A stretch of DNA of 59,012 nucleotides from Melioribacteraceae bacterium (GTDB taxonomy: Bacteria > Bacteroidota > Ignavibacteria > Ignavibacteriales > Melioribacteraceae): contig JAKIUC010000028.1 in NCBI GenBank assembly GCA_021647785.1, positions 1-59,012 of the forward strand. Reading direction: 5' to 3'. The notes under the pieces are model-generated. The model did not search any database. It saw nothing but the letters and a program-made list of their open reading frames with translations, and was not told where the DNA came from. The position numbers and the translations under genes are program-made. Shown piece by piece: positions 1,039 through 39,238 of the stretch (its first letter is position 1; every line of letters starts with the position of its first letter).

Positions 1039-2298
1039 GTGAGACTTTTTCGTCTCTTCTTTGTGCTGTCGGTTATTATTGCAATACCGGTTATTGCACA
1101 AAATAAAATAACACTTGATGAAGCTATAAATATGGCTTATCAGAAGAATATTGATTTACAAAAACAATTTGTAGCCATAAAAAATGCTGAAACAGATCTC
1201 GGTGGCTCAGCAAGGTTACCGAATCCTTTGTTTTCATATTCGCGTGAAGATTTAAAATCAAATTTTTCAAATTATAATGAGTGGATAGCTTCCGGCTCAA
1301 TCCCTATAAATTTTCTATGGGAACGCTGGAGTAATATTGATTCAAAAGAGAAATCTCTTGAAGCCCAGAAATTTTTATACGAAAATTTCAAGAGGAATAT
1401 AACCTTAAAGGTTCGGGAAAATTATTATGCTTTTCACAATCATTCTGCTCTATCGCAATCTTTGGATAAAACTCTGCTTCGTCTATCAAATTTAACAGAA
1501 GCGGGAAAACACCGCTTAGTGGAAGGAGATATTTCAGAATATGAGCTACAGAGAATTTTAATTGAGCTGAATAAACTAAGAGCAACTGCATCAAAAATAG
1601 AATTGCAAAAAATCAAATTTGAAAATGGCTTAAAGCTGCTAATTGGATTTGATACAAATATTAGAATTCATACTCTCTCCCCTTCACTAAAAAAAGAAGT
1701 TGAATTTACCGAAAGGGAACTTATTAAAATTGCACTTGATAACAGGAATGATGTAAAAGCATTTCAGCTAATTATTGAAAGTGAAAACTTAAACTTATCT
1801 TTTAATAAACTAAAAATAATTCCGGAAATAAATTTTACTGCCGGCTACAAAAAACAAACAGGTGATTTAAGTGGATCTGTTTTGCAGCTCGATTTTGAAA
1901 TTCCTTTATTCAATCGTAATCAAACCTTAATAGAGCAATCCGAAATTCAACTCTCTATTCTTGAAAAAGAGATGCTTTTCTTAGAAGAAAAAATTAAAAT
2001 GGAAGTTGTTGAATCGTTTCATAATTATAACGTAAACAAAAATTTGTTTGAAGATATAAATGATCTTCAGTTCAAAAATATTTTCACAACCGCTGCATTT
2101 TCTTACGAGCAAGGGGAAATATCCCTCGTTGAATTTATAGATGGAATTAATGCCTTTATTGACGTGCTTATTTTAAGAAATGAATTACAAATAAATTACA
2201 ACAATAGTTTTTTCAAACTTGAAAAAGCAGTTGGGGGTTCTCTTACTCCCAACTTAATCGGGAATGAAAATAATTTAGGAGCAAAGGAAATAAAATGA
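1039..2298 (+). CDS. TolC-family outer-membrane efflux protein (CzcC/CusC-like)
   Basis: This 419-residue protein has a cleavable signal peptide (about residues 1-20, ending in ...VIAQ) and the two long-helix repeats of outer-membrane factor proteins. The segment near residue 24, TLDEAINMAYQKN, is the usual start of an OEP repeat, and the second repeat begins near residue 225 (ERELIKIALDNRNDVKA). It would form the outer-membrane exit duct of a tripartite RND pump with the two genes that follow. Translation starts at GTG 1039, supported by GGAGG at 1030-1034. Its stop overlaps the adaptor start by 4 bases (ATGA). Family assignment is strong; the exact metal is not readable. Confidence 0.9.
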   Translation: MRLFRLFFVLSVIIAIPVIAQNKITLDEAINMAYQKNIDLQKQFVAIKNAETDLGGSARLPNPLFSYSREDLKSNFSNYNEWIASGSIPINFLWERWSNIDSKEKSLEAQKFLYENFKRNITLKVRENYYAFHNHSALSQSLDKTLLRLSNLTEAGKHRLVEGDISEYELQRILIELNKLRATASKIELQKIKFENGLKLLIGFDTNIRIHTLSPSLKKEVEFTERELIKIALDNRNDVKAFQLIIESENLNLSFNKLKIIPEINFTAGYKKQTGDLSGSVLQLDFEIPLFNRNQTLIEQSEIQLSILEKEMLFLEEKIKMEVVESFHNYNVNKNLFEDINDLQFKNIFTTAAFSYEQGEISLVEFIDGINAFIDVLILRNELQINYNNSFFKLEKAVGGSLTPNLIGNENNLGAKEIK

Positions 2299-3812
2299 TA
2301 AAAACTAATTTTAAAAAAGTATATGCAGCATTTGTAATATTAGCAGTTACACTCTTCATTGGCTGTTCGCACGAACATGAGCACGATTCCAATAACGCTG
2401 AACATGAGCACAGCAGCATTTCGATTACACAATATACTGATTCAACTGAAATATTTATGGAGTATCCGGCGTTAGTGATTAATACTGAGGCAAAATTTCT
2501 TATTCATTTAACTGATTTGAAAAACTTTAAAGCTGTAACCGAAGGTGTTTTAACCGTTGAGTTTATAAATCAAAAAGGAACGAAATTTTCCATTATACAA
2601 GCAGAACCCACTCGTGCCGGTATTTACACACCTGTGGTAGAATTTATTAAACCGGGAAAATACAAAATGACCATTACTCTTACAGGTAAACAAGTTTCCG
2701 ATATAATTATTGTTAACAATTTAATTGTATATTCTAACGAAAGCGAAATTCCTCACGAAGAGGAAGAATCTTCTTCAAGCATATCTTTCTTGAAAGAACA
2801 GCAATGGAAAATTGATTTTAAGAATGAACCGGTAATTAAAAGAAAAATGGAAAAATCTGTTGTTGCTACCGGAGAAATAAAAGCAAAGTCTGCGTTATTC
2901 TCTAAGGTTGTTTCTCCTATTGAAGGAGTTGTGTTGAGCAAAAACAATGAAAGCTTAAAACCAATTGGTTCTTTTGTGAAGAAAGGAGATGTGTTGTTAA
3001 ATATTTCCCCATCTGCTGATGCAAGTTTCAGCATTCAAAAAATAAAAAACGATTTTCACTTAGCTGAATCGGAATATGAAAGAGCACAAAATTTATTCAA
3101 TAAAAAAGCCGTCTCTCGGAAACGCTTGGAAGAAGCCAAGTTCGATTTTGAAGCGAAGCAAGCAAGTTACAACTCTCTAATTGATCAAATTAAGATAACC
3201 GAAAATGGTTTTGCTATAATTGCTCCCATCAGTGGGCATATTGAAAACAAGGAGTTTGTATTGGGCGATCACATACTGTCCGGACAAGAATTGTTTACAA
3301 TTATCAATCCGCATAGATTGGTATTAAAAGCAAATGTTCCATCTTCTCAATTTGAAGCTGCGAATAATTCAACTGATGCTTCCTTCAATGTGGAGGGTAT
3401 AAATTCCGAATTTAGAATAAGCAATATGGATGGAAAAAAAATATCCGTTGCAGCAAGCCTAAATGAAACAAACAGAACAGTACCGGTTTATTTTGAGTTT
3501 AGTAATCCTAAAAATAAAATTAAGGTGGGAATGTATGCCGAGGTTTACATAAAAGTTGGGGGGACAAATGAATATATATCTATTCCTGAAAGTGCAATAG
3601 TTAACGAAGACGGATTACATACAGCTTATGTTCAAACCGAAGGAGAAGTGTTTGAAAAAAGAATATTAAAAACCGGAATTATTAATAACGGATATGTGCA
3701 AATAATTTCCGGATTAAAAGTTGGAGAAATGGTTGTTACAGTTGGTGCTTATCAAGTAAGGCTTGCTGCACTTTCTCCCGAATCTGCAATTGGTCACGGT
3801 CATGCTCACTAA
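2295..3812 (+). CDS. RND efflux periplasmic adaptor lipoprotein (CzcB/CusB-like)
   Basis: A 505-residue membrane-fusion protein. A lipobox (LFIGC, Cys24) is followed immediately by a His/Glu-rich stretch, HEHEHDSNNAEHEH, a likely metal-binding tail. Residues about 45-150 look like an Ig-type beta domain often found in HME-type adaptors. From about residue 185 come the beta-barrel and lipoyl halves (VVATGEIKAK, then SPIEGVVLS, with IIAPISGHI on the return strand) flanking a coiled-coil hairpin around residues 245-300. The C-terminus is also His-rich (GHGHAH). It links the inner-membrane pump to the outer-membrane factor. The start overlaps the previous stop, implying translational coupling. 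Confidence 0.92.
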   Translation: MIKTNFKKVYAAFVILAVTLFIGCSHEHEHDSNNAEHEHSSISITQYTDSTEIFMEYPALVINTEAKFLIHLTDLKNFKAVTEGVLTVEFINQKGTKFSIIQAEPTRAGIYTPVVEFIKPGKYKMTITLTGKQVSDIIIVNNLIVYSNESEIPHEEEESSSSISFLKEQQWKIDFKNEPVIKRKMEKSVVATGEIKAKSALFSKVVSPIEGVVLSKNNESLKPIGSFVKKGDVLLNISPSADASFSIQKIKNDFHLAESEYERAQNLFNKKAVSRKRLEEAKFDFEAKQASYNSLIDQIKITENGFAIIAPISGHIENKEFVLGDHILSGQELFTIINPHRLVLKANVPSSQFEAANNSTDASFNVEGINSEFRISNMDGKKISVAASLNETNRTVPVYFEFSNPKNKIKVGMYAEVYIKVGGTNEYISIPESAIVNEDGLHTAYVQTEGEVFEKRILKTGIINNGYVQIISGLKVGEMVVTVGAYQVRLAALSPESAIGHGHAH

Positions 3813-3818
3813 AAAAAT

Positions 3819-3921
3819 AATCCGGCTTCGTTAAAAAGAAACTACGCCGAGACAATCCGGCTTCGTTAAAAGAAACTACGCCGAGACAATCCGGCTTCGT
3901 TAAAAGAAACTACGCCGAGAC
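3819..3921 (+). repeat. Three tandem 34/35-bp hairpin repeats
   Basis: Three head-to-tail copies lie at 3819-3853 (35 bp), 3854-3887 (34 bp) and 3888-3921 (34 bp). They are identical except for one additional A in the first copy. Each unit contains an imperfect inverted repeat, CGGCTTCGTT against AACTACGCCG, pairing at 8 of 10 positions around a short A-rich loop. They fill the gap between the adaptor stop and the pump ribosome-binding site at about 3924-3930. Confidence 0.95.
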
Positions 3922-3936
3922 AAGAAGGAGAAAAAA

Positions 3937-6900
3937 ATGTTTGATAAACTAATTCAATTATCACTTCAGAAAAGATTGGTTGTACTTATATCATCTATTC
4001 TGCTGCTGATATTAGGAACATATATTACTATCGATTTACCTGTGGATATTTTCCCCGATTTAACAGCACCGACTGTAACCATAATGACTGAGGCTCACGG
4101 TATGGCAGCCGAAGAAGTTGAAATGTTGGTTACATTCCCAATTGAAACAGCAGTAAACGGAGCAATGGATGTGCGGCGAGTTCGTTCATCAAGCTCAGCC
4201 GGCTTTTCTATTGTTTGGGTTGAATTTGATTGGGGTGCGGATATTTTTATTGCACGCCAAATTGTAAATGAAAAAATTCAAACAACAGCAGCAATTTTAC
4301 CAAAGGGTGTAGATAAACCGGTTCTTGCACCTATCTCATCTATTATGGGTGAGATAATGCTTGTCAGTTTAACTATTGATGAGAACAACAACCCGCAGAA
4401 CTTAACTGAAATGGATTTAAGAACATTAGCCGATTTTGAAATTAGAAGACGGCTGCTTTCAATAAGCGGAGTATCTCAAGTAATCCCTATTGGAGGATCG
4501 GTAAAACAATACCAAATTTTTGTTTCACCTGAAAAACTTGCCTCGTACAATATTACCTTAAATGAAGTGCTGAAAGCGGCTGAAGAATCGAACGAAAACT
4601 CTTCAGGCGGTTTGTATATGGATTCCGGCAGTGAGTATTTGATACGAGGGATTGGAAGAGTTAAAACCATTAACGATATAGCAAACAGTGTGGCTGCCAT
4701 CCGCGATAATGTACCTATTTTTATTAAAGATATTGCAGATGTTCAAATTGGTTCGGCAATAAAAATCGGTGATGGTTCAGCTAATGCAAAGCCTGCTGTA
4801 ATTTTAACAATTCAGAAACAGCCTCAAACAAACACTATTGAATTAACTGAAAAAATTGAGGAAACTCTTGCTGCAATTCAGCACTCTCTTCCACCAGGAA
4901 TTGTTATTAATACCAACATATTTAAGCAAGCCGACTTTATAAAAATATCTATCACCAATGTAATTAAGGCTTTGCGTGATGGTGCAATTCTCGTTATTAT
5001 TGTCATCTTTCTATTTTTATGGAATTTTAGAACAACATTTATTTCAGCACTTGCCATCCCACTTTCAATAGTTATAACAATTATCATTTTTCAGATATTT
5101 GATATTATGATAAATACAATGACTTTGGGGGGAATTGCTATTGCCATCGGTGCTCTGGTTGATGATGCTATTATTGACGTTGAGAATGTTTTCCGGCGTT
5201 TGAAAGAGAACAGATTAAAGCCAAAAGAGGAAAGAGAGAATTCTTTAACTGTTATTTTTGAAGCATCAAAAGAGATACGAGCACCAATGGTAAATGCAAC
5301 ATTAATAATTGTTATCGTTTTTATTCCGTTATTCTTTTTAAGCGGTGTTGAAGGGAGGCTTTTAAGACCAATGGGCATTGCTTATATAACTTCAATTTTT
5401 GCATCTCTCTTTGTAGCATTAACAATAACTCCTGTGCTGGCTTACTATTTATTGCCAAAAGCTAAATTTATGAATAAAGAGGAGGATACTTGGCTCGTTA
5501 CAAAACTTAAATATTATTATGAAAAAATATTGAGTGTTACACTTAAACATCCCAAAACCCTTCTTATATCGGCAGTAATAGTTCTAGGATTTACCATTGC
5601 CGTTATCCCATTTTTAGGCAGAGCGTTCTTGCCCGAATTTAATGAAGGCTCTCTTACAATAAACTTAGTTACGCTTCCCGGTACATCTTTAGAAGAATCG
5701 AACAAAATAGGCAAACTTGCCGAGGAGATTATACTTACGTTTTCCGAAGTGAAATCAACCGCCCGCAGAACCGGTAGAGCAGAACTTGACGAACATGCCC
5801 AAGGTGTAAATAGTGCCGAGCTTGATGTTCGATTTGAGTTGAATGGGAAAAGCAAAGAGGAATTTATTACGGAAGTACGAAACTCCCTTGCTGCCCTGCC
5901 CGGAACAAATATTACAATTGGTCAGCCAATAGGACATAGAATAGACCACATGCTTTCGGGAACCCGTGCCAACATTGCCGTTAAAGTTTTCGGCTCAAAT
6001 CTGCAGCAGCTACGCTCGTTGGCTAATGCCGTTAAAGATGAAATGGAGAAAGTAGAAGGAGCAGTTGATATTGCTGTGGATCAGGAAGTTGAAGTACCGC
6101 AGACTAAAATAAAATTCAACCGTACTGCAATGGCTCGTTACGGTGTTACAGTGGGGCAGCTTGCTGAAGCAATTGATATTGCCTTTAATGGCGAAGTAGC
6201 TTCGGAAATTCGTGAGGGGCAGAATATTTTCGATTTGGTAGTTCGTTTCAATGAAAATAACCGCGGCAATATTCACAAAATTCAAACAGCATTGTTCGAT
6301 ACTCCGATGGGTGCGAAAATCCCTTTATCTCAATTAGCTGAAATTGTTAATGAAAAAGGACCCAACCGGATTAGCCGTGAAAATGTTCAGAGAAAAATAG
6401 TTGTCCAAGCCAATGTATCTGGAAAAGACCTCCGAAGTGTAGTGGACGAAATGAAATCTAATATTAAAAATAATGTTAATTTTCCTCAAGGATATTTTGT
6501 TGAATTCGGCGGGCAGTTCGAGAGCGAACAGGAAGCCACAAGAATTATCTCATTGCTAAGTTTAGTTTCAATTGGTGCAATATTTTTAATTCTATATTTG
6601 CAATTCGGCAGATTTAAGTACGCATTATTTATATTGGTTAATTTACCACTCGCTTTAATTGGCGGTGTTTGGGCTGTTTACTTTACAGATGGTATTATTA
6701 GCGTTGCTTCACTTGTGGGATTTATTACTCTGTTCGGCATTGCAACGCGGAACGGTATATTGATGATTGCACATTACACACACCTTTTAGATGAAGGGAA
6801 AGAGTTTACACAAGCCGTAGTTCAAGGGTCAATTGAAAGATTAAACCCGGTTTTAATGACTGCTATTACCGCAGCACTTGCATTAGTGCCACTTGCACTT

Positions 6901-7032
6901 GGCGGTGGGCAACCCGGTAAAGAGATAGAAGCTCCAATGGCAATTGTAATTCTCGGCGGGTTATTTACATCAACAGCACTAAATATGATTATTCTTCCAA
7001 CTCTATTTCATAAGTTTGGGAAGGAGAGATAA
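3937..7032 (+). CDS. Heavy-metal RND efflux pump, inner-membrane subunit (CzcA/CusA-like)
   Basis: A 1031-residue RND transporter of standard HME length: TM1 near residues 13-32, a large periplasmic loop, TM2-6 around 335-490, TM7 near 545, a second loop, and TM8-12 after about residue 870. Proton-driven export through the outer-membrane duct is known for the family. The TM4 segment at residues 403-417 reads AIGALVDDAIIDVEN. Asp409 and Glu416 match the conserved acidic pair of CzcA, but the upstream Asp of CzcA is Ala, as in CusA, and there are two additional Asp residues (410, 414). Metal choice is therefore uncertain. AAGGAG lies 7 bases before ATG 3937, and three tandem repeats precede it. 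Confidence 0.93.
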   Translation: MFDKLIQLSLQKRLVVLISSILLLILGTYITIDLPVDIFPDLTAPTVTIMTEAHGMAAEEVEMLVTFPIETAVNGAMDVRRVRSSSSAGFSIVWVEFDWGADIFIARQIVNEKIQTTAAILPKGVDKPVLAPISSIMGEIMLVSLTIDENNNPQNLTEMDLRTLADFEIRRRLLSISGVSQVIPIGGSVKQYQIFVSPEKLASYNITLNEVLKAAEESNENSSGGLYMDSGSEYLIRGIGRVKTINDIANSVAAIRDNVPIFIKDIADVQIGSAIKIGDGSANAKPAVILTIQKQPQTNTIELTEKIEETLAAIQHSLPPGIVINTNIFKQADFIKISITNVIKALRDGAILVIIVIFLFLWNFRTTFISALAIPLSIVITIIIFQIFDIMINTMTLGGIAIAIGALVDDAIIDVENVFRRLKENRLKPKEERENSLTVIFEASKEIRAPMVNATLIIVIVFIPLFFLSGVEGRLLRPMGIAYITSIFASLFVALTITPVLAYYLLPKAKFMNKEEDTWLVTKLKYYYEKILSVTLKHPKTLLISAVIVLGFTIAVIPFLGRAFLPEFNEGSLTINLVTLPGTSLEESNKIGKLAEEIILTFSEVKSTARRTGRAELDEHAQGVNSAELDVRFELNGKSKEEFITEVRNSLAALPGTNITIGQPIGHRIDHMLSGTRANIAVKVFGSNLQQLRSLANAVKDEMEKVEGAVDIAVDQEVEVPQTKIKFNRTAMARYGVTVGQLAEAIDIAFNGEVASEIREGQNIFDLVVRFNENNRGNIHKIQTALFDTPMGAKIPLSQLAEIVNEKGPNRISRENVQRKIVVQANVSGKDLRSVVDEMKSNIKNNVNFPQGYFVEFGGQFESEQEATRIISLLSLVSIGAIFLILYLQFGRFKYALFILVNLPLALIGGVWAVYFTDGIISVASLVGFITLFGIATRNGILMIAHYTHLLDEGKEFTQAVVQGSIERLNPVLMTAITAALALVPLALGGGQPGKEIEAPMAIVILGGLFTSTALNMIILPTLFHKFGKER

Positions 7033-7095
7033 TTTGAATGATGAACATCGATTAACGAATTACGATTTCAGAACTTGAGAATTTCATCATTCAAA
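7033..7095. repeat. Inverted repeat immediately after the pump gene
   Basis: TTTGAATGATGAA at 7033-7045 is perfectly complementary to TTCATCATTCAAA at 7083-7095, and the pairing continues after a 1-base bulge (AATT on both sides). The 37-bp spacer is AT-rich. It begins directly after the pump stop codon, so it may protect or process the 3' end of the efflux mRNA. No T-run follows it. Confidence 0.7.
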
Positions 7096-7139
7096 ATTCC
7101 TTGTTCTATATTCGGGAAAAGGTTCTGCTGGGCAAAATA

Positions 7140-7170
7140 AAAACCACCCTCGTAAGAGGTGTGGTTTTTT
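7140..7170 (+). terminator. Rho-independent terminator of the efflux operon
   Basis: The arm AAAACCACCCTC (7140-7151) pairs with GAGGTGTGGTTTT (7156-7168) around a GTAA loop, with one bulged T, and the stem runs into a T-tract ending at 7170. It is correctly oriented to stop plus-strand transcription about 110 bp after the pump gene. Confidence 0.85.
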
Positions 7171-7174
7171 ATTG

Positions 7175-7270
7175 TATACCGACAATGAAATGTCTGTGAG
7201 ACTCTTACAGAGGTTTTCCTTCCGAAAACCAATTTGTTTGTTCCTGTGAATGCTACTAAATGTACACAGG
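7175..7270. repeat. Dispersed hairpin element, copy 1
   Basis: It starts with TATACCGACAATGAAATG (7175-7192). This is followed by the hairpin GGTTTTC/GAAAACC (7212-7230) continuing as CCAATTTGT, then by CCTGTG (7243-7248) paired with CACAGG (7265-7270). The first motif recurs at 19550 and 46927, and the CCTTCCGAAAACCAATTTGT block recurs at 46999. The copy lies between two converging genes. The right arm of hairpin 1 seen in the other copies is missing here. Confidence 0.7.
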
Positions 7271-7325
7271 CACTATGTCCAATGTAACCTTATTTGTATC
7301 ACCGCGCTCCCCTTTTGTATAAATT

Positions 7326-7556
7326 CTATAAACTCTCCTTCGCTCTTTCTAAAGCAGAGATAACCGCATCAATATTTTCTTTAGGAATATGTACTTTCCA
7401 ATTTGGTTCATCACTCTTTTCTTGAAGTAAAACACCTATGCTTACTACGCTTTCACTCTTTTCACCATAAGGTTTATCTACTATACTTATAGATATCCTT
7501 CCATTTTTAGTATTACCCAATTTAATTTCTTCGATATTTCTCACTGTTCCACTCAT
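7326..7556 (-). CDS. Small PC4/p15-like protein (tentative)
   Basis: A 76-residue protein with no signal or membrane segment. Four or five predicted strands (for example GRISISIVDKPYG and SVVSIGVLLQE) are followed by a C-terminal helix (KENIDAVISALERAKESL). This size and order resembles the single-stranded-DNA-binding PC4/p15 coactivator fold, in which a helix follows the curved sheet, but the sequence match is weak and the assignment is inference. AAGGAG lies about 7 bases before the ATG. It is transcribed in the same direction as the S1/P1-like gene behind it, with a 106-bp gap, and could share a transcript with it. Confidence 0.6.
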   Translation of the reverse strand: MSGTVRNIEEIKLGNTKNGRISISIVDKPYGEKSESVVSIGVLLQEKSDEPNWKVHIPKENIDAVISALERAKESL

Positions 7557-7662
7557 AGTTGCTCCTTTATTATAATTTTTTAGTGTATCATTTTTGCAAT
7601 TAACTCATAATCTTTTGCAGACATATAATTTTTATTATCACTTGTAAATATATTACTATTTA

Positions 7663-9558
7663 TTAAAGATAATATCGCCAATCAAATGCTAAACGTAATC
7701 CGATATACCAAACAGGTTTAAGCTCTGGTAAATCAGCACCTGTTGGTGAGCTTACTTTATTATTACGCGGTATATCCACACCTGCATTTAGCTGAACTAC
7801 TAAACTGGAACTCTGATCGAGTGAGAACGTACGGAATGGACGATACTCAAGAATTGGAAAATCAAACTGTGTAGATTGAAATGTTATAAGTGTTGTTCCA
7901 TCTTTATTTTCACCTTGTCCTGGTATAAGGAGAGCATCCTTCTGCTTACCATGCCCGTAAAATGTTACTCCTATTTCACGACCAAAAATAAATTGAATTC
8001 GTCCGATTGGGGTTGCAATTCCGCTCTGCCACGGAATTAGACCACCATTTACTGCCTGTACACCAATACTGGCAAGGGTTTCAGGTGATATGAGTGCAAG
8101 TAAAGGAGTAAGAATAAGCATATCTCCTGGAACAAGCCAGAAGGGGAGACGTAAACGGATTAAGTATGCATCACGCCCAGGTATAGCTGCAGTAATTTGA
8201 CCTCCTGCAATAAGTGTACTCGAATTACCAAACTTCATAGTTGAGGGACCATCTTGTCGCCAGCCAAGGTCAAGAAAAATCAATCCATCTCCAGACTCGT
8301 TCAACACTCCCTCTAAACCAACACCTAAACGTATAGCAACATCAATTCCGCCAACACCGCCAACCGTAACTTGGTCAACCCCAAATCCTCCATCTACTGT
8401 ATTACCGCGTATTGCAGGAACTACACCAACAAACATTCCAAGCTCTGTACGAAAACGAGGAAGTTCTCCTAATCCTGTTGCAAGTCCCGGTACAGGTGTT
8501 AACACAAGAACATCTAGTAAATAAGTTCTAATAAGAGTCTCTTTAATATTTAACTTAGGTAGTAATTTTTTTTTACAAACGTTAAAATTATTTGGTGTTA
8601 TTGAAAAAGAATCGGTAGTTGACGGATAATTTATTTCAACATTTCCACTTGCTAAATCAAGAAGTTGTTCTAAACTTAACCTAATAGCTGCAGCAGCAAC
8701 CTCTGCATCTTGGGGTCGCATATAAGCATCACCCATTAGTATAATACGTTCGCCATTCCATGTTGTAACATCTAATCCTTTTTCATTGTAGAAATCATGA
8801 GTACCTTTACGCTGCGAAGCATCGCCCCATGTACCTGCTACATGACCTGCAGCAAAAACATCTTGAAGAAAATGGTGTGCAAATGCTTCATCAGCAAGAG
8901 CCGACAAAGCTAAAGCTGAGCGTTCAGAATCTGATAATAATTCATTATTTAATTTTGCAGCTTTCATCAAAGCACTATAATGAAATAATGTATAAGCAGC
9001 CAGAGCATTTAGTTCTGCACCTTCCGTTAAACATGCCGTTAAATATTCACGAATATCGGTTCCAACTTCCGGACGTGCTAATAAGAAATGGACATTGTTT
9101 GAACCCGCACGGGTTGCATACTCTAAATCTGCACGCTGCAATTTAATATCTGAATCACGAATTGAATTAATATGTTTACTTCGTAATTCAGAATTTGAAA
9201 TATCTATTTTTAATTGAGCAGCAATATCAGCAACCTCTAGTATCCAATCTGTTTTCAAAACATTGTGTAGTAATTTTTCCGGTGAGCATGAATGATCTCC
9301 ACTTATAGCAGACCATGAGGCATAATCAAGCTTTTGAGGTTCAATTGTTTGTGTTGCGTAAATAACAGTTTCGGTTAATCTATACTCATAACCAACTCTT
9401 GCTTCTGCCCAAAGTTTATTAAGAATGGAATGATACTCTGGGGAAAGTTTTTCAATTGCCAACAGACTTATATCTCTATGTTCAGGGTACAACCAGGCAT
9501 ATACAGATGTATTATAAATGAAAAGAAATGCAGCAATCAGAAGAAATGGTTTTTTCAT
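7663..9558 (-). CDS. Secreted S1/P1-nuclease or phospholipase-C-like zinc hydrolase with C-terminal barrel-like domain
   Basis: The best start is ATG at 9558 (631 residues); the frame extends upstream only through a TTG at 9582. The signal peptide ends ...SVYA, and cleavage there leaves Trp as mature residue 1 and His as residue 6, the exact positions of two zinc ligands in P1 nuclease. Further likely ligands are GDH (mature 66-68), LLH (77) and the block AHHFLQDVFAAGH, whose His-Asp-His spacing of 4 and 6 equals His116/Asp120/His126 of P1. THDFYNE follows where the last ligand pair is expected. From about residue 330 the protein changes to alternating beta strands ending WYIGLRLAFDWRYYL, like an outer-membrane barrel. 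Substrate (nucleic acid or phospholipid) is not readable. Confidence 0.75.
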   Translation of the reverse strand: MKKPFLLIAAFLFIYNTSVYAWLYPEHRDISLLAIEKLSPEYHSILNKLWAEARVGYEYRLTETVIYATQTIEPQKLDYASWSAISGDHSCSPEKLLHNVLKTDWILEVADIAAQLKIDISNSELRSKHINSIRDSDIKLQRADLEYATRAGSNNVHFLLARPEVGTDIREYLTACLTEGAELNALAAYTLFHYSALMKAAKLNNELLSDSERSALALSALADEAFAHHFLQDVFAAGHVAGTWGDASQRKGTHDFYNEKGLDVTTWNGERIILMGDAYMRPQDAEVAAAAIRLSLEQLLDLASGNVEINYPSTTDSFSITPNNFNVCKKKLLPKLNIKETLIRTYLLDVLVLTPVPGLATGLGELPRFRTELGMFVGVVPAIRGNTVDGGFGVDQVTVGGVGGIDVAIRLGVGLEGVLNESGDGLIFLDLGWRQDGPSTMKFGNSSTLIAGGQITAAIPGRDAYLIRLRLPFWLVPGDMLILTPLLALISPETLASIGVQAVNGGLIPWQSGIATPIGRIQFIFGREIGVTFYGHGKQKDALLIPGQGENKDGTTLITFQSTQFDFPILEYRPFRTFSLDQSSSLVVQLNAGVDIPRNNKVSSPTGADLPELKPVWYIGLRLAFDWRYYL

Positions 9559-9753
9559 ATTTCGCTCATAATAAATTTTCAAAAAATATTAACAAAAGAA
9601 AATAAAGATAACTTTCAGATTTTCAATCTAATAAATAGTATAGAAAGATTATTCTTTTTTTTGATGCGGCATTGCTAACTTAACTGCAATGGAGAGAGCG
9701 TAATTCTTTACATTTTATTATCTTTAATTTTAATATAAGTTTAACGTGAGAAA

Positions 9754-10944
9754 ATGACCAATTATATTTACAAATGCACAAATTGCAAATCAGAATTTGA
9801 ATCGAGCGAGATTGAAAACAACTTTCACTATCTATGCCCCAAGTGTGGAAAGGCTGAGAAGAACCAACCCCTTAAAGGTGTTTTGCTAATTGAATATAAT
9901 TACAACTCAATAAAGAAGGATATTTCAAGGGAAGAATTTTTAAATTTGGAATCTGGAAAGTTCTGGCTCTATCCCGAACTTTTACCGATAGATTTTTCCA
10001 AAACAGATACTTCTATTTTAAATAGATTATCACTTCCTTCAAGCACTTTATTGGATTATCAAATAGATAATAACAAATTCTCAATTTTAGATGAAACGAG
10101 AAATCCTACTCTCTCTTATAAAGACAGGGCTTCCTCCCTTGTTGCATTAAAAGCTATGGAGTTTGGAATAAATGAAATTGCAGCAGCTTCAACTGGAAAT
10201 GCAGGCTCCTCACTTGCTGGTATATGTGCAAGACTTGGGTTAACTTCTCACATTTATGTTCCTAAAAATATTCCCGATGCAAAGAGAATTCAAATAGCAG
10301 CATACGGTGCAAACCTTGTAGTTGTTGATGGAGATTACGATTTTGCATTTGATAAATGTCTTGAAGATTCTAAAATTAACAATTGGTATAACAGAAACAC
10401 GGCATACAATCCACTTACTATTGAAGGAAAAAAAACAGCAGCTTTTGATATTTTCATACAGGGAAAAGGAAATATCCCAGATACAGTTTTTATTCCGGTG
10501 GGGGATGGCGTAATTATTTCTGGAATTCACAAAGGATTTTTAGAGTTGCTAAAACTTGGCTGGATAGAAAAACTACCACAACTAATAGGAGTACAATCGG
10601 ATAAGAGTGATGCCGTTGTTAGATATTTAAGTAGTAGCAAGTTCGTTTATAAACCAGCAACTACTATGGCTGATAGTATTTCAGCAGGTGCACCACGTAA
10701 TTTATACTTAGCAGCAGAATCTATTAAAGCGAGTGCTGGCAAAGCTATTTCCATATCTGACGAAAACATTTTGCAAAGTCAAAAAGAATTTATTAAAGCA
10801 ACTGGCGTTTTGTGCGAGCCTTCAAGTGCCGCAACATACGCAGCTTATAAGAAATTATTAGATGAAAATGAACTACAAAACAAATCTGTTCTTCTCTTAG
10901 TTACCGGAAATGGATTGAAGGATATTGAATCGTTAAAAGAATGA
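9754..10944 (+). CDS. thrC: Threonine synthase
   Basis: A 396-residue PLP enzyme of fold-type II. It converts O-phosphohomoserine to threonine. An N-terminal zinc-ribbon-like cluster (Cys8, Cys11, Cys28, Cys31) is typical of the shorter, bacterial/archaeal type of threonine synthase. Lys123 in PTLSYKDRAS is the expected PLP lysine, and STGNAGSSLAG (about 146-156) is the phosphate/substrate loop of the family. Cysteate synthase and other relatives share these features, so the specificity is probable rather than certain. The stop overlaps the MocA-like start by 4 bases (ATGA at 10941), suggesting coupled expression. Only a weak GTGAG precedes ATG 9754. Confidence 0.82.
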   Translation: MTNYIYKCTNCKSEFESSEIENNFHYLCPKCGKAEKNQPLKGVLLIEYNYNSIKKDISREEFLNLESGKFWLYPELLPIDFSKTDTSILNRLSLPSSTLLDYQIDNNKFSILDETRNPTLSYKDRASSLVALKAMEFGINEIAAASTGNAGSSLAGICARLGLTSHIYVPKNIPDAKRIQIAAYGANLVVVDGDYDFAFDKCLEDSKINNWYNRNTAYNPLTIEGKKTAAFDIFIQGKGNIPDTVFIPVGDGVIISGIHKGFLELLKLGWIEKLPQLIGVQSDKSDAVVRYLSSSKFVYKPATTMADSISAGAPRNLYLAAESIKASAGKAISISDENILQSQKEFIKATGVLCEPSSAATYAAYKKLLDENELQNKSVLLLVTGNGLKDIESLKE

Positions 10945-11537
10945 AAAACAAAATAACTGGTTTGCTAATTGCAGCAGGCTTCTCTTCAAGAATGGGTAAA
11001 TTTAAGCCGTTGCTAACTTATAGGAAGAAATCATTTTTATATAATATTGTAACTAAGTTGGATTCTGTTTGTGATGAAACCATTGTAATTACAGGGCATA
11101 ATGATGATTTGATTGAGAAAGAGCTAAACTCATTTTCAACAAAAAAAAGAATTAAAACCATTTTTAATGAAAACTATCAAGATGGAATGTTCACATCTCT
11201 ACAAACAGGATTACAGGGAACAGCAAGCAGCCATTGGGTTTTGTACCATTTCATAGACCAGCCAAATTTGCCGAATCTATTTTACAAAGAATTTATTGCA
11301 CAAATTGATGATTCGTTCGATTGGATACAGCCTAAATATAACGGAAAGAAAGGGCATCCAATTTTATTAGGGGAAGAAGTAATAAAAATAATCTTAGCTT
11401 CTAATCCGAAAAGTAATTTAAAACAAATATCTGAAAACCATAATATTAAAAAGAAATGTTTTGATGTTAAAACCAAATCAATCTTTTGTGATGTTGATAC
11501 GAAAGAGGATTACAAAACGTTAATTGAACAAAAGTAA
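10941..11537 (+). CDS. MocA/YgfJ-like molybdenum-cofactor nucleotidyltransferase
   Basis: A 198-residue MobA-like NTP transferase. The N-terminal block LLIAAGFSSRMGKFKPLL (about 8-25) is the nucleotide-binding signature of this superfamily, and GKKGHPILLGEEV is the conserved mid-protein motif of MocA-type enzymes. MocA adds CMP to molybdopterin for xanthine-dehydrogenase-type enzymes. YgfJ is its relative in selenium-dependent hydroxylase loci. A molybdenum hydroxylase gene converges on it, about 0.5 kb away, which fits this role. The C-terminal DVDTKEDYK is also usual in the family. The ATG overlaps the threonine synthase stop. Confidence 0.85.
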   Translation: MKNKITGLLIAAGFSSRMGKFKPLLTYRKKSFLYNIVTKLDSVCDETIVITGHNDDLIEKELNSFSTKKRIKTIFNENYQDGMFTSLQTGLQGTASSHWVLYHFIDQPNLPNLFYKEFIAQIDDSFDWIQPKYNGKKGHPILLGEEVIKIILASNPKSNLKQISENHNIKKKCFDVKTKSIFCDVDTKEDYKTLIEQK

Positions 11538-11562
11538 ATAGGTCATATTTTCTCGTTCAAAT

Positions 11563-12039
11563 TTATTTGTTTTCCATAAAGTTATTATACTTGTCATCTA
11601 TATTTTTGAAAAAGCCATTTGGTTCAATAAGTAAAGATTTTCCTTCAACAGCAATAGTGCCATCATCCAAAGTGATTTCACCTTTAGCTAATATTTTCTT
11701 TCCCTTTTTGCTTACAACTTTTGCGTGTATTTTAAGGGGTACGCCAAGCGGAACAGGCTTTAGAAAATTAATATTTAAATTAGCTGAAACAATTTTATAA
11801 CCAGTAACCCAAGCAGCAAACCCCATGGCTTCATCCAACAATGCAGCGGAGGCACCACCGTGTGCATGTTCGGGCGGTCCCTGTTGTTCTGCTGTTAAAA
11901 CTGTATCACAGTATATTTCGTTGTTCTCAGAATAATACCATTTTACTCCAATGCTTTTAGGGTTTTGCGATCCGCATACAAAACATGAACCATGTTCCGG
12001 GAGTGGTTTTAATTTGTTTTTATCTAAGTTATTTAACAT
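11563..12039 (-). CDS. PaaI-like hotdog-fold thioesterase
   Basis: A 158-residue protein with a hotdog domain. The motif HAHGGASAALLDEAMGFAAW (about residues 74-93) carries the HGG and the acidic residue used in PaaI/YigI-type acyl-CoA thioesterases. A Cys pair, CFVCG, near residue 20 is common in one subgroup of these proteins. Its start overlaps the end of the molybdenum hydroxylase gene by 11 bases, so the two are probably translated from one mRNA. The substrate is unknown. A link to the hydroxylase pathway is inferred from the overlap alone. Confidence 0.85.
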   Translation of the reverse strand: MLNNLDKNKLKPLPEHGSCFVCGSQNPKSIGVKWYYSENNEIYCDTVLTAEQQGPPEHAHGGASAALLDEAMGFAAWVTGYKIVSANLNINFLKPVPLGVPLKIHAKVVSKKGKKILAKGEITLDDGTIAVEGKSLLIEPNGFFKNIDDKYNNFMENK

Positions 12040-14593
12040 TAATTTCTCTCTTCTTTATAGGCAACTTAAAATACCTTGTTCCATCAAACTGATAAAAGGC
12101 ATTTGCAACAGCACCCGCTGTGGGTACAAGCCCAATCTCTCCAACCCCTTTAGCACCGTGTGGTCCTTTGGGGTCGGGAACTTCAACACCAATCACTTCA
12201 ATATTCGGAGTCTCTTTAGCACGCAGCACTCCCATTTTCCTTAAGCGTGTCGATTTTGGAATTCCCTTTTCAAGCTCAAGTTCTTCAGATATTGCATAAC
12301 CCAAACCCATATGAACAGAGCCTTCAATCTGTCCTTCAAAGAGAGTTGGATTTATAATTTTGCCTGCATCGTGAGCTGCAATTATTTTTTCAACTTTCCC
12401 TTCATTATCAAGAATTACAACTTGCGTTGCATAGCTATAAGAATAGTGTGTTACAATTTCTTTAACATCTGCATCCGGTTTTGTAGTCCAATCGCAAATC
12501 CATTGTCCAACATATTCATTGCCCGCCAAATCTGAAAGTCTCTTTGTTTTTAAATCCTCAATTAATTTTTTAGAAGTTTCACGAATTGAATTTCCAATAA
12601 GGGATGTTGCCCTTGAAGCAGTAGTCATTCCAGAGCGAGCCTCTTTGGATGTATCAACAACAACCTCAATAATGTTGGGGTCTATTCCAGTCTCTTCACA
12701 AAGAAATTGAACTGCCATTGTATTTACACCTTGTCCCATCTCTGTCCAGCCATGATTAAGAATAACTCTATCTTCAGAAATTATTTCTATCTTAATTATT
12801 CCATCATCAGGCATACCGTTTCCAATTCCTGTATTCTTTATTCCACAAGCAATTCCAGCATACTTTGAGTTTTGGAATACCTCCTTAACAGCAAGTAATG
12901 TTTCACGAACCCCAGCACCAGCAAGTATCACTTGTCCAGTAGCTGTTTGGTCTCCATTTTTTATAGCATTATCAAATCGGAATTGCCATCTATCAAATCC
13001 ACCTTGTTTGCATAAATCATCCACACATCCTTCAACTGCAAAGGTAGCTTGGTTTGCACCAAATCCTCTCATAGCACCACAGGGTATATTGTTTGTATAA
13101 ACAGCTTTTGCACTCACTTTTACATTTGGAACCGTGTAAGCCCCTGTTGAATGCCCTGCAGCACGCTCAAGAACTTTCATGCCTACAGAGGCATATGCAC
13201 CAGTATCACCAATAATATCCGCCTCTAAAAAAGTTAGCATTCCGTTTTCATCACACCCTAATTCGTATTTCATTTTAATTGGATGTCGCTTAGGGTGCAT
13301 TATTATTGACTCATCTCGTGTAAGTGTAAATTTTACAGTTTTGTTTAATAGGAATGATGCAAGAGCAGCGTGATGTTGAACTGTTAAATCTTCCTTCCCG
13401 CCAAAGCCGCCACCGTTGGGAACAAGCTTAACTCGTACCTTTTTTTCATCAAGGTTTAATATCTTCGCAATCTGTTTTCTATCTTCATAAACTCCTTGCC
13501 CTTGCGAAAATATTTCAACACCATCTTTATAGGGTCTAGCTACAGCAGCCTCTGTTTCTAAAAATGCATGCTCAACCATCTGAGTTTCATAAATTCCAGT
13601 AGAAATAAATTTTGATTTGCTCTTTGCTAATTCTATATCACCTCTATCAACCACTGTCTCAGAAAGGAGATTACCCCCTTTGTGAATATGCGGAGCATCA
13701 GCATCAAGAGCTTTAGTCATTTCAGTTAATGGCTCTAATACCTCATAATCAACTTTGATAAGATCTAATGCTGCTCTTGCAACATCATCACTTTCAGCAA
13801 TAACGGATGCAATTACATCACCAACGTATCTTGTTTCCTCACCTACTGCAACCATCATTGACCAATCTTTAACTATAAGTCCTGATATTCTATCTCCTGG
13901 AATATCCTCAACAGTTAATACTTTTTTAACACCGCTAAGCTGCTCAGCCTTTGTTATATCAAGGCTAACAACTTTTGCACGAGGATGTTTGCTAAACTTC
14001 AATGCACCAAAAAGCATTCCTTGAAATCGCAAATCGTCAACATAGGGTGCAGTTCCGAGTGTTAATTTATCTCCATCATATTTTGGCTGGCTTTTTCCAA
14101 TTTTACCAATTTGTTTTGGAGTGGGAATCTCTTTCGACTCTCTAATCGCATCGGCAGCAAGTTCAATTGAATCTATGATTTTTATATATCCAGTGCAGCG
14201 ACAGATATGTGGAGTGAGCGAGTTAACAATTTCTTTGCGTGTGGGGTTTTCATTGCTTCGGATAAGTGTGTTGGCACGCATCACAATTCCAGGTGTGCAA
14301 AATCCGCATTGTGTTCCACCTTTCTCTACAAAAGCATTGGCAAAAACATTTTGTTTATATTCACCAAGACCATCAGTGGTAGTAACTTCTAATTTCTCTA
14401 CTTTCTTCATTGGTGTTATACACGAAAGAACTGCATCGCCATTAAGTTCAACTGTACACGAGCCACAACTGGCTTGACCTGAACAGCCATCTTTTACAGT
14501 TGTAATGTTTTCGATGTTACGTAAATATTTTAGAAGTGGTAATTCTAAATCACCTGTGTATTCTTTTTCAATACCATTTAATATAAACTTCAT
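12029..14593 (-). CDS. Selenium-dependent xanthine dehydrogenase-like molybdenum hydroxylase
   Basis: An 854-residue fusion of an Fe-S domain and a molybdopterin domain. The first [2Fe-2S] site is Cys37, Cys43, Cys46 and Cys58; the second is Cys96, Cys99, Cys131 and Cys133 (QCGFC...CRC). The molybdopterin part starts near residue 165. It has GGGFGGKEDL around 390 and MRGFGANQATF around 505, and ends with KGVGEIG, where Glu819 fits the catalytic glutamate of xanthine oxidase family enzymes. There is no FAD domain. The layout and the ygfK neighbour match the family called selenium-dependent xanthine dehydrogenase; labile selenium on the Mo centre is known for that group and only inferred here. 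The exact substrate could be a purine or another heterocycle. Confidence 0.87.
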   Translation of the reverse strand: MKFILNGIEKEYTGDLELPLLKYLRNIENITTVKDGCSGQASCGSCTVELNGDAVLSCITPMKKVEKLEVTTTDGLGEYKQNVFANAFVEKGGTQCGFCTPGIVMRANTLIRSNENPTRKEIVNSLTPHICRCTGYIKIIDSIELAADAIRESKEIPTPKQIGKIGKSQPKYDGDKLTLGTAPYVDDLRFQGMLFGALKFSKHPRAKVVSLDITKAEQLSGVKKVLTVEDIPGDRISGLIVKDWSMMVAVGEETRYVGDVIASVIAESDDVARAALDLIKVDYEVLEPLTEMTKALDADAPHIHKGGNLLSETVVDRGDIELAKSKSKFISTGIYETQMVEHAFLETEAAVARPYKDGVEIFSQGQGVYEDRKQIAKILNLDEKKVRVKLVPNGGGFGGKEDLTVQHHAALASFLLNKTVKFTLTRDESIIMHPKRHPIKMKYELGCDENGMLTFLEADIIGDTGAYASVGMKVLERAAGHSTGAYTVPNVKVSAKAVYTNNIPCGAMRGFGANQATFAVEGCVDDLCKQGGFDRWQFRFDNAIKNGDQTATGQVILAGAGVRETLLAVKEVFQNSKYAGIACGIKNTGIGNGMPDDGIIKIEIISEDRVILNHGWTEMGQGVNTMAVQFLCEETGIDPNIIEVVVDTSKEARSGMTTASRATSLIGNSIRETSKKLIEDLKTKRLSDLAGNEYVGQWICDWTTKPDADVKEIVTHYSYSYATQVVILDNEGKVEKIIAAHDAGKIINPTLFEGQIEGSVHMGLGYAISEELELEKGIPKSTRLRKMGVLRAKETPNIEVIGVEVPDPKGPHGAKGVGEIGLVPTAGAVANAFYQFDGTRYFKLPIKKREINVK

Positions 14594-14716
14594 AGGAACG
14601 CAGATTATTATGATTGTTAAGATTAATTATGATTTATGTTCATTTATTAAACACTTATTTAAAATACAAATTCTTTTAATCTTATTAAATCATAAGTATC
14701 ATAAAAATCTGCATTC

Positions 14717-17700
14717 CTATTCGGTTTTTAGTAATGAATCATTATGCAAGTTCTTTAATAGATATATCATTTCTGATAGCTTTGATAGATTGATACTCTC
14801 ATTTTCTGATTCTTTCAACTCGCAGTTAACAATTGAATAATCTCTACTATCCAGTTCAACATTAACTATATCAGATTTATAAATATAATTTGAATTCTTC
14901 AAACTAAGAGTTTCAACAACACCATTCAATTTATAATACAAAGAACCAGCTTTCATCAAATAACAATTATCTTCACTATTAAAACTATCTTCTGTTAAAT
15001 AGAATTTTGGTTTTGTTAAATAAGGTGCTTCACTTGTTGGGCAGAAGGTGTTGCAGTTGCCACACTCATTGCAAAAATCTCCGATGTTAAAAATCTGCGG
15101 TTTTTGCTCAACTGTAAAATAGTCATCAATGATATTAACAACGTCGTTCCCCCTCTTCTCAAGTATGTAAATCGGAATTCTCTCCTGAGTTGATTCAAAT
15201 GAAATATTCGCAAAATTAGGACAAACACCAATGCAGATATTACAAACGTCATCACAAAACAAACAACGAGATGCTTCTGCAATTGCTTCTTCGTTACTTA
15301 ATGAAGGATGCACTAACTCAAAGTTATCTCTATCATCCAAAGAGATTTCTGGCATTGGCTTACCAAACATGCGAGTAGCTTGATTCTGTTGGAACTTAGA
15401 GAAACTTAATTTTTGGGTTCTCCTCTTTTCTTCATCATCATTCGTGTTCGTTCTTTTAATTATTTCCAATGCTATTTTCTTCCCATCACCAATAGCATTT
15501 ATTAAAGAATCGGCTCCGCGAACAGCATCACCACCAGCAAAGATATTTTCCAATTCTGTTTCAAGTGTGTCCTTGTTTAAATTAAGTTTTTCACTCTCAA
15601 GAAATTCGAGTTTAACCTCTTGTCCGATAGCGGGAATTATTGAATCAAAACTTATAGTAAATTCTGAATTAGGAATTTCAACTGGTCTTCGTCTTCCACT
15701 TTCATCAGGCTCCCCTAACTCCATTCTTGTAAGATGGAATTTCAATCTGCCATTTTCTTTTTCAATATTTTGAGGTGCAGTTAGTTCAAGTAACTCTATT
15801 CCTTCTGCCAACAATGCTGTTATCTCTTCAGAATCAGCAGGCATCTCCTTTTGGGTTCTGCGATAAATCACAGTAACTCTTCCGCCATTTTCTACCAGCC
15901 TGTTTGCAGTTCGTGCAGCATCAACTGCTGAGTTACCACCACCAATTATAGCTACCTCTCTTCCAAGTGTGATTTTTTCTTTGCGGCGGACTTTAGAAAG
16001 AAAAGCTAATTGATCTAAAACACCATCATGGTTTTCCCCTTCTATGTTAAGGAGTTTACTTTTCTGTGCTCCTACAGCTATGTGGGTGTAATCATATTCT
16101 TTCTGAATTTTGTTGAACAACACCATATCCACTTTTTGATTGAACTGAAATTTTACACCGAGTGATTTTATTAAATCAACATCAGCTTTAATTTGTTCAT
16201 CTGTTAATCTGAAAAATGGAATCGAATCAGATGCCATTCCACCAGCAAATGATTTAGATTCGTAAATTGTAACATTAAATCCTTCAAGTGCTAAAAAATA
16301 TGCTGAAGACAATCCGGACGGACCAGCCCCAATAATAGCAACGTTAAATCCATTTTTCTTTTTAACTGTCGCAGCAATATCAACATTCTCTTCTTCAGAA
16401 TTAAACCGTTTAATTCCTCGTATTAGCAGGGTGTTGTCATAATTCATACGAGTACACTTGGTTTGGCAAAGATGGTCACACACATTTCCTGTAATGTTTG
16501 GTAGAGGGTTATCCTTTAATATTACATTCAACGCCTCTCCAAAATATCCGTTTTGAGTTTGCCACATATATTCAGAGACGTTCTGAGTAACAGCACAAGT
16601 TTCTATACAAGGTGCATGAACACAGTCGTATTCAGTTAATTGTCGTGATGTTTTAATATTGTCATAAGGGAAATTACTTTTATAATATACTTTGTTCTCC
16701 AATACTAAATCAGCATAGTTCGACAAATTAACTAACCCAGCCTCTCTAACCTCTAACTTCTCCCCTCTTGCCTTTACATATTCATCAATACTTTTTGCTC
16801 CAACGTCATTGAAACTCTTTTTAAGTTCATCCATATATTGAACCATTCGCAAGTAACCGCCAGGCTTCAACAAATCGGAGCAGACTGTGATTGGTTTTAA
16901 ATTGCATGCTAAAGTATCAGCCACATTAAACGCATCAACACCAGCAGAGAACGAGATGTCGAGTTTTCCATCAAAACTCTCTTGTAGTTTTTTTGCAAGA
17001 TTAATACTTATGGGATGCAAGGCACGCCCACTTGCGTAAACCATGTTTTCGCTATCCGGAAGCCATCGTGTTGTGTTTATTGCTTCAAGTGTGTTTGTAA
17101 GTTTCAATGAAAACTGAACCCCAATATTATTAGCACTTTTTTGAAGTGATTTAATTATTTGTAGTGCATCACTATACTTTAGGTCATGTTCAAATGCTTC
17201 ATCAGGAACGGTAATTTCATATCCAAGTTTTTCATTTAAAATATATTTTAGTTTTTCTGCACCTAAAAGAGTTGGATTAAGTTTAATTGTAGTGTGCAGT
17301 TTTCTCTCTTCAATTAAATATTTTCCTATGCTCTCAATCTCATCTGCCGGACAGCCGTGCATTGTAGAGAGTGTAATATTGTTTGATATCTGAACAGGAA
17401 TATCAATCTCATAAATTTGCGGATATAGCTTTTCAAGTTGTGATTTCTTTGCTTCCAACTCGGTACTGCAATCGTTCATCCTATCAAAGAACCATTGTAT
17501 ATTGGGTTTTAAGATTCCCTCTAAATTATAGCCAACACTCATATTAAATATTACACCAAGTTCTTTCGTATCCCAATCAAATTTTTGTTTTAGAATATGA
17601 ATTAAAATCCAAGCGTTTAAATATTCATCAAACGAATCTTTTATTTTTAACTCTTGTGACCACTCGCAGTTGTAGCCTTCGTCCTCCATATCAATGCAAG

Positions 17701-38656: not shown

Positions 38657-39238
38657 ATGGATCCTATAAGTATTATAGCTGGTATTGGTTTACTATTATC
38701 GATTGCGGCAAATAGCTCTGCTGCAAAAGGTGGATTAAAAAGGGCTGTAACAAAATCGGAAAGAAAACCAAATACATATTTACAAAAAACTCCGTTAAAT
38801 ATTTCTGCTTTAATTTTGATTCTTCAAATTCTTGGTGTTTTTCAAATTGGTGCTATTAAATATGAAAGTGAGTATCAAATATTTAGAATAATTGGGTTAA
38901 TTCTTTTTGCTATATTTGCTTGGCTTCAGGTAAAATCATTTAAAAATCTTGGTGATTTTTATTCGCAAGAAATTTCGCTTCAAAAAAATCATCAGTTAGT
39001 TTCTACTGGCATTCACAAAACTATTAGGCACCCGCAGTATATTAGTCAAATACTAAGCGACTTGTTTTTAGGAATTGCTCTCGGAAGTTATATCATTATT
39101 CCGTTGGTATTATTGGTTGAACTGCCACTTTTTATTTTAAGAGCAAAAAAAGAAGAGGCTATGATGCTCAGTTTTTTTGGTGATAAATATTCTGAATATA
39201 AGAAAAAGAGTAGCTTTATTATCCCAGTCATTTGGTAA
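38657..39238 (+). CDS. Isoprenylcysteine carboxyl methyltransferase-like membrane protein
   Basis: A 193-residue integral membrane protein with about four hydrophobic segments. The motif TGIHKTIRHPQYISQIL (about 118-134) matches the RHPxY S-adenosylmethionine-binding signature of the ICMT/PEMT family, and the C-terminal KKEEAMMLSFFGDKYSEYKKK completes it. Bacterial members methylate lipids or unknown membrane substrates. The amidase gene starts just after its stop (or inside its end if a TTG start is used). Confidence 0.82.
   Translation: MDPISIIAGIGLLLSIAANSSAAKGGLKRAVTKSERKPNTYLQKTPLNISALILILQILGVFQIGAIKYESEYQIFRIIGLILFAIFAWLQVKSFKNLGDFYSQEISLQKNHQLVSTGIHKTIRHPQYISQILSDLFLGIALGSYIIIPLVLLVELPLFILRAKKEEAMMLSFFGDKYSEYKKKSSFIIPVIW

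Follow-up and report, generated by a model that had tools for sequence, protein, structure and literature searches.

A predicted zinc phosphodiester hydrolase joined to an outer-membrane barrel-like C-terminus in a family of Bacteroidota proteins

What is the function of a protein that begins like a secreted zinc hydrolase and ends like an outer-membrane barrel? This question is raised by a gene of a Melioribacteraceae bacterium at positions 7663–9558 (minus strand; 631 amino acids plus a stop codon) of a 59,012-nucleotide stretch of DNA (assembly GCA_021647785.1, contig JAKIUC010000028.1, positions 1 to 59,012), the whole of which we refer to as the window. The original prediction, made from the letters alone, had described the architecture as one that it could not name, and our searches agree with it. 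The window protein gave one spurious match in Pfam (E = 0.25), none in NCBIfam and none among solved structures, and a profile of its family gave a single irrelevant match to solved structures (E = 0.88). When all 35 proteins of the family described below were compared with Pfam, the best match was to GGR_cat, in one member (E = 0.0055). Within open-licence papers, we found no description of an outer-membrane barrel that carries a P1-type or zinc phospholipase C domain. The protein is exported, and its family is undescribed as far as comparison with the literature and databases reaches.

The gene is the sole match in its own genome (E up to 1). Elsewhere, we recovered two groups of relatives. 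Group A consists of 29 full-length proteins including that of the window, to which the other 28 are 41–72% identical. Group B consists of six proteins that resemble group A in the N-terminal half only, and the five that were aligned are 20–23% identical to the window protein. The N-terminal halves of the two groups are related (hhalign probability 99.5, E = 6e-23). The 35 proteins counted throughout are these 29 and six, with L003 and L004 being near-copies of each other; they were drawn from 42 distinct ORFs after exclusion of seven fragments (L014, two in L038, the second ORF of L043, L049, L050 and L051). ORFs under 100 amino acids, such as that of L036, were not listed, and three later finds (L116, L117 and L118) lie outside the count. 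Genomes with matches, including those with group B proteins and fragments, numbered 11 of 296, 23 of 391 and 18 of 164 in overlapping samples of the phylum, class and order, respectively, and a joint profile of the catalytic half found matches in 17 of 395 genomes of the phylum sample. No relative was found on the plasmids or viral contigs searched. A scan of named genomes gave three loci, in MAGs labelled Cytophagales, Bacteroidales and ‘Alphaproteobacteria’. The contig carrying the last of these (L004) matches the Bacteroidales contig (L003) in gene order, encodes almost identical proteins and is probably mis-binned.

We began with the N-terminus, where removal of a signal peptide had been predicted to expose Trp1 and His6 of the mature protein. 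This prediction fits the family well. Residues 1–21 make up the signal peptide (9496–9558; these and all coordinates given below for parts of the gene are on the minus strand), and the predicted cleavage after S-V-Y-A leaves a mature protein that starts with W-L-Y-P-E-H. His6 (9478–9480) is present in 35/35 proteins, and the residue five positions before it, immediately preceding position 1, is always small (Ala in 25, Gly in six and Ser in four). The distance from cleavage site to His6 is thus fixed, as a ligand provided by the N-terminal backbone would require. Trp1 itself (9493–9495), a proposed zinc ligand via its backbone, is Trp in all 29 group A proteins but in three of the six group B proteins, the others having Tyr, Phe and Gly; this variability fits a backbone role rather than a side-chain role.

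The predicted zinc phosphodiester-hydrolase domain that follows spans residues 22–320 (mature residues 1–299; 8599–9495) and is the part common to groups A and B. An alignment of 14 representatives (nine from group A and five from group B) has 18 invariant columns in this domain: E5, H6, D67, H68, H136, Y168, H172, H208, D212, G217, H218, H233, D234, G240, G248, G255, D256 and S274 in mature numbering. The His and Asp residues among them also hold in all 35 proteins. Seven of the 18 are ligand candidates, and they occur in the order known from P1 nuclease, whose zinc ligands are W1, H6, D45, H60, H116, D120, H126, H149 and D153. We take each of these except D153 to have an invariant, or in the case of Trp1 nearly invariant, counterpart here, in the same order. 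After His6, the candidates are found in Asp67-His68 (9292–9297), within G-D-H-S; His136 (9088–9090), within an H-F motif; His208, Asp212 and His218 (8842–8874); and His233, which is followed by Asp234 and by position 237 in the motif H-D-x-[YF]-[NC] (8785–8799). The His-Asp-His block is made up of the second His of FAHHFLQDVFAAGH, an Asp at +4 and a His six residues further (H229, D233 and H239 of the precursor). This spacing arose in 0.17% of trials in which the invariant columns were placed randomly, and in 3.4% when their labels were permuted over the observed positions. Taken together, the data support strong constraint on the ligand pattern across the whole family.

The spacing of the block had been predicted to be exactly as in P1 nuclease, and the intervals of 4 and 6 are indeed invariant in 35/35 proteins. 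‘Exactly’ does not extend to the ligand set. The position four residues after the last ligand His is Asp in P1 and Glu in phospholipase C, but the family never has either at this position, with Asn in 28 of 35 proteins (Asn237 in the window protein) and Cys in the other seven. This substitution is the clearest departure from known families. Asn and Cys have replaced one another with at least four changes on the tree, two of them forced by well-supported branches. The invariant Asp234 that adjoins His233 could serve as the acidic ligand instead.

Is the domain then a member of a known zinc hydrolase family? None of the 35 proteins matched the S1/P1 nuclease family (PF02265) or Het-C (PF07217) at E up to 1, and zinc-dependent phospholipase C (PF00882) gave no match in the proteins of either group. 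The window's own genome contains no match to PF00882 or to the S1/P1 family. When the family was compared, profile against profile, with protein sets of the same phylum, the probabilities were only 0.1–1.3, so that no link to S1/P1, S1/P1-like or phospholipase C profiles was significant. These sets comprised 11 S1/P1 proteins (L065–L075, with L076 left out), six S1/P1-like proteins taken together or as four plus two, and four PF00882 proteins (L055 was left out, and L056, L060 and L064 had no ORF of the expected length). Two sub-significant local alignments placed His6 (1.3) and the His-Asp-His block (0.4) in register with the S1/P1 proteins. As a control, S1/P1 proteins compared with the four PF00882 proteins scored 0.6, indicating that the method can miss kinship within the superfamily. 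Conversely, S1/P1 proteins compared with two S1/P1-like sets, one of which consisted of four proteins with three retrieved by means of PF00882, scored 97.3 and 97.6. Bridging proteins can thus be detected for the known families but not for this one, and the negative result carries some weight.

The likenesses and differences are otherwise as follows. With S1/P1 nucleases, the family shares Trp1 and His6 after removal of the signal peptide, an Asp, the His of an H-F motif, H-x3-D-x5-H and a later His; six of the seven remaining ligands have invariant candidates, and the equivalent of D153 is Asn or Cys. It differs from them in the 69 residues that separate Asp67 from His136, compared to 15 in P1, and in the added barrel-like C-terminal half. 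With the zinc-dependent phospholipase C of Bacillus cereus, the family shares the ligand order, the spacing of 4 and 6 and, probably, a lipid substrate, and it differs in the last ligand and, again, in the barrel-like half. S1/P1 nucleases have been described as having nine zinc ligands, consisting of one Trp, three Asp and five His (PMC4144908). Because the profile did not match and one ligand differed when tested, we class the protein as one that would work like phospholipase C and P1 enzymes, without assigning it to PF00882 or PF02265. Het-C is a precedent, by analogy, for so distant a branch: PMC3482391 describes it as a divergent branch that is tied to phospholipase C and S1/P1 by a 50% probability together with the ligand pattern. 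Looked for as a bridge, Het-C was found in one of 198 genomes of the phylum.

We then turned to the C-terminal half, for which an alternating beta pattern had been predicted. A linker (residues 321–364; 8467–8598), whose length and sequence differ among relatives as far as about residue 345, leads into a predicted outer-membrane beta-barrel of perhaps eight strands (residues 365–631; 7666–8466). The predicted alternation holds up: over these ~265 residues, its mean moment was 0.300, compared to 0.220 in shuffled columns (standard deviation 0.024). In the N-terminal half, the value was 0.189 compared to 0.207 when shuffled. S1/P1 nucleases have an all-helical fold with a trinuclear zinc site; here, a test for helix periodicity exceeded the shuffles in neither half (0.169 compared to 0.166 in the N-terminal half), and a scan for strand runs found six in the C-terminal part and five shorter ones in the N-terminal half. 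AlphaFold2 models of the window protein with L002, L003 and L004 were of low confidence, both at full length (pLDDT 33.6), where the N-terminal half was mostly helices, and for the C-terminal part (pLDDT 38.3), where strands reached 22 residues. Both low-confidence models have about eight main strands in the C-terminal half and a helical insertion between predicted strands (residues 484–504; 8047–8109).

The protein ends in a predicted strand, V-W-Y-I-G-L-R-L-A-F-D-W-R-Y-Y-L (7666–7713), with large hydrophobic residues at every second position. A strict outer-membrane end pattern was passed by 25/35 proteins (21/29 in group A and 4/6 in group B), compared to 12/148 other ORFs of the same neighbourhoods, some of which are cut by the end of the stretch and hence lack their true end; the 12 that passed are mostly exported or barrel proteins by eye. 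Ten family proteins failed the pattern: L003 and L004 have a short tail after the motif, L022 has one extra residue, and the fit of L002, L006, L008, L013, L015, L027 and L045 is weaker, at a minimum of two positions each. As to the aromatic ending that had been predicted, the window protein ends in FDWRYYL with Leu as its last residue; among the other 28 proteins of group A, Phe, Tyr or Trp is last in 22. Together, the small residue at −1 in 35/35 proteins and the C-terminal end pattern are the marks of an outer-membrane protein, and the sequences support a C-terminus that behaves like an outer-membrane barrel. The C-termini of groups A and B have no detectable similarity to each other (hhalign probability 0.4), suggesting that a single type of catalytic domain may have been paired with two distinct barrels.

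On these grounds, we propose that the protein is a secreted, outer-membrane-anchored zinc phosphodiester hydrolase that probably acts on lipid head groups, a reading to which we give a probability of slightly more than one half (roughly 0.52). Zinc binding, catalysis, topology and substrate are what we infer. The protein would be exported by Sec and cut by signal peptidase I before Trp1. One zinc would be held by the backbone of residue 1, His6 and Asp212, a second by Asp67, His136, His208 and Asp212, and a third by His218, His233 and the unusual Asn or Cys, or else Asp234. A bridging water or hydroxide would then attack the phosphate ester. The C-terminal ~265 residues would insert as a small barrel, leaving the enzyme on the periplasmic side. 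A domain of 300 residues would not fit through a barrel of about eight strands, and an even number of strands places both ends in the periplasm, so that the inner leaflet of the outer membrane is the most likely place of action. There, its substrates would be the head groups of phospholipids or of a lipid-linked carrier.

The choice of a lipid substrate draws on the neighbours of the family genes. We called ORFs around 21 loci and typed 20 neighbour proteins of the relatives with Pfam. A DUF3943 gene adjoins the family gene on the same strand, with a gap of about 40 bases, in two genomes (G637 and G555), and lies ~6 kb from it in a third (G140). Among 19 genomes tested, 12 had no DUF3943 gene and seven had a total of 12 copies; it was linked to the family gene in those three genomes and unlinked in the other four, including the window's own. 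By chance, 0.05 genomes would be expected to have a copy within 7 kb, compared to the three observed, and the nominal probability of 2e-5 is loose, as DUF3943 was picked after looking. The G140 stretch further contains a DUF481 gene and two genes that are 50% identical to each other, one of them a PAP2 gene (PF01569, E = 2e-18). One DUF3943 gene of the window's own genome has the same surroundings as in G555, namely an aroA-like gene, one small gene, DUF3943 and a small barrel-like gene; the zinc-hydrolase gene is absent there and is found in the window instead, among RND efflux genes and a gene for a PLP-dependent enzyme, which say nothing on lipids. According to PMC12419801, DUF3943 is predicted to process the head groups of outer-membrane lipids, is nearly always fused to or in an operon with a barrel, and has PAP2 listed among its operon partners; the words ‘phospholipase C’ and ‘PLC’ do not occur in the text of that paper. 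The neighbours suggest a lipid phosphoesterase over a nuclease, in three genomes and with the function of DUF3943 itself being a prediction.

The same domain could instead be an outer-membrane-tethered nuclease or general phosphodiesterase that, as S1/P1 enzymes do, scavenges nucleotides or phosphate. The family resembles S1/P1 and phospholipase C equally in its ligand pattern, the sub-significant alignments mentioned above are in register with S1/P1, and 18 of 61 genomes of the phylum encode S1/P1 proteins that exceed the Pfam cut-off. That the window's own genome has no such match is neutral. We nevertheless consider this unlikely, given that lipid-type and barrel genes are what recur among the typed neighbours, a set of 20 proteins in which other links may have been missed.

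The topology proposed for the lipid hydrolase bears on another alternative, in which the barrel carries the catalytic domain to the cell surface by type V secretion and the enzyme acts outside the cell. The order of parts, from signal peptide to enzyme to barrel-like C-terminal end, is that of type V proteins. Known passengers are carried by barrels of 12–16 strands, compared to only about eight main strands within ~265 residues in our low-confidence models, and no POTRA or autotransporter Pfam match was found in the 29 group A members. The closest likeness is to the type Vd proteins PlpD and FplA, in which a phospholipase domain has its own outer-membrane barrel (PMC11116518 and PMC5724010). 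Their enzyme is patatin-like and accompanied by a POTRA domain, with a 16-strand barrel in the PlpD family (PMC11116518), and no patatin or POTRA Pfam match was found here. Export to the surface is accordingly a quite improbable role for this barrel.

Slightly more improbable still is that the metal site has been kept without catalysis, the protein being a sensor, a metal buffer or an assembly factor. Such a role would fit the replacement of Asp or Glu by Asn or Cys throughout the family, a degenerate relative (L118) without His233, and the location of the window gene beside an RND efflux operon (1039–7029; genes for an OEP, a CusB/HlyD-type adaptor and an AcrB-type pump). This operon is probably for metal efflux: its adaptor has His-rich stretches, and it is preceded by a very His-rich ORF of 154 amino acids (321–782). 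Across the family, however, RND-type genes occur at only 3/21 loci, in the other two of which they do not abut the family gene, and we dropped the link to metal efflux. Additionally, the other ligands and Asp234 are invariant at ~20% identity, which is typical of catalysis. Finally, a C-terminus that is a soluble membrane-binding beta domain, like the fused lipid-binding beta domain at the C-terminus of secreted zinc phospholipases, would suit the lack of a confident barrel model (pLDDT 33.6 and 38.3) but seems very improbable given the outer-membrane end pattern in 25/35 proteins and the low-confidence model, whose strands reach 22 residues.

If the hydrolase does act on lipids at the outer membrane, it would extend what is known of this compartment, where lipid head-group turnover is poorly understood. 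The outer-membrane phospholipases known so far, OmpPlA among them, are acyl hydrolases and do not cleave head groups. A phospholipase C-like zinc enzyme on a barrel would be a defined enzyme to test, in a family that spans more than one class of the phylum and whose gene, in a few genomes, has barrels predicted to exchange lipids as neighbours. That a conserved Asn or Cys replaces an acidic ligand raises, in turn, the question of how much this zinc site tolerates. The YfiM-Griddle (DUF3943) lipocones are likewise predicted to be enzymes of lipid head groups in the outer membrane that come with a barrel (PMC12419801); they differ in belonging to the lipocone family and in having their own Pfam model, to which the proteins studied here have no match. 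A bolder version of our reading, which we offer tentatively and regard as doubtful, is that the family constitutes a new branch of the trinuclear zinc phosphodiesterases, marked by an Asn or Cys ligand and fused to two unrelated barrels, and that it takes part, with DUF3943 and PAP2, in an undescribed pathway of Bacteroidota-like bacteria for removing or exchanging the head groups of lipids within the outer membrane.

Several further observations concern the loci and relatives. In G140, positions 1783–17359 of the locus (L098) hold a dense cluster of exported or barrel-like genes, including two DUF3943, two PAP2-like and one DUF481 gene as well as repeated genes, and the cluster is apparently partly duplicated in tandem. 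MscS-type channel genes (PF00924) lie within ~3.5 kb of the family gene in five of 19 genomes (L081, L085, L091, L094 and L096; two of the five are of one genus), compared to 0.2 expected, this family too having been picked after looking; in G184 and G653, both of one genus, the two genes directly abut. The window itself encodes an LpxR homologue (47081–48028, minus strand; outer-membrane lipid A deacylase family, PF09982, E = 7e-52), 37 kb from the gene, and a protein of the phospholipid methyltransferase/ICMT family (38657–39235, plus strand; PF04191). Among the later finds, L116 keeps the ligand set by eye. Three relatives appear to be decaying: L118 (G144) has lost other ligands along with His233 and kept its barrel-like end, L117 (G047) is interrupted by a stop codon, and L014 (G086) has shrunk to 146 residues.
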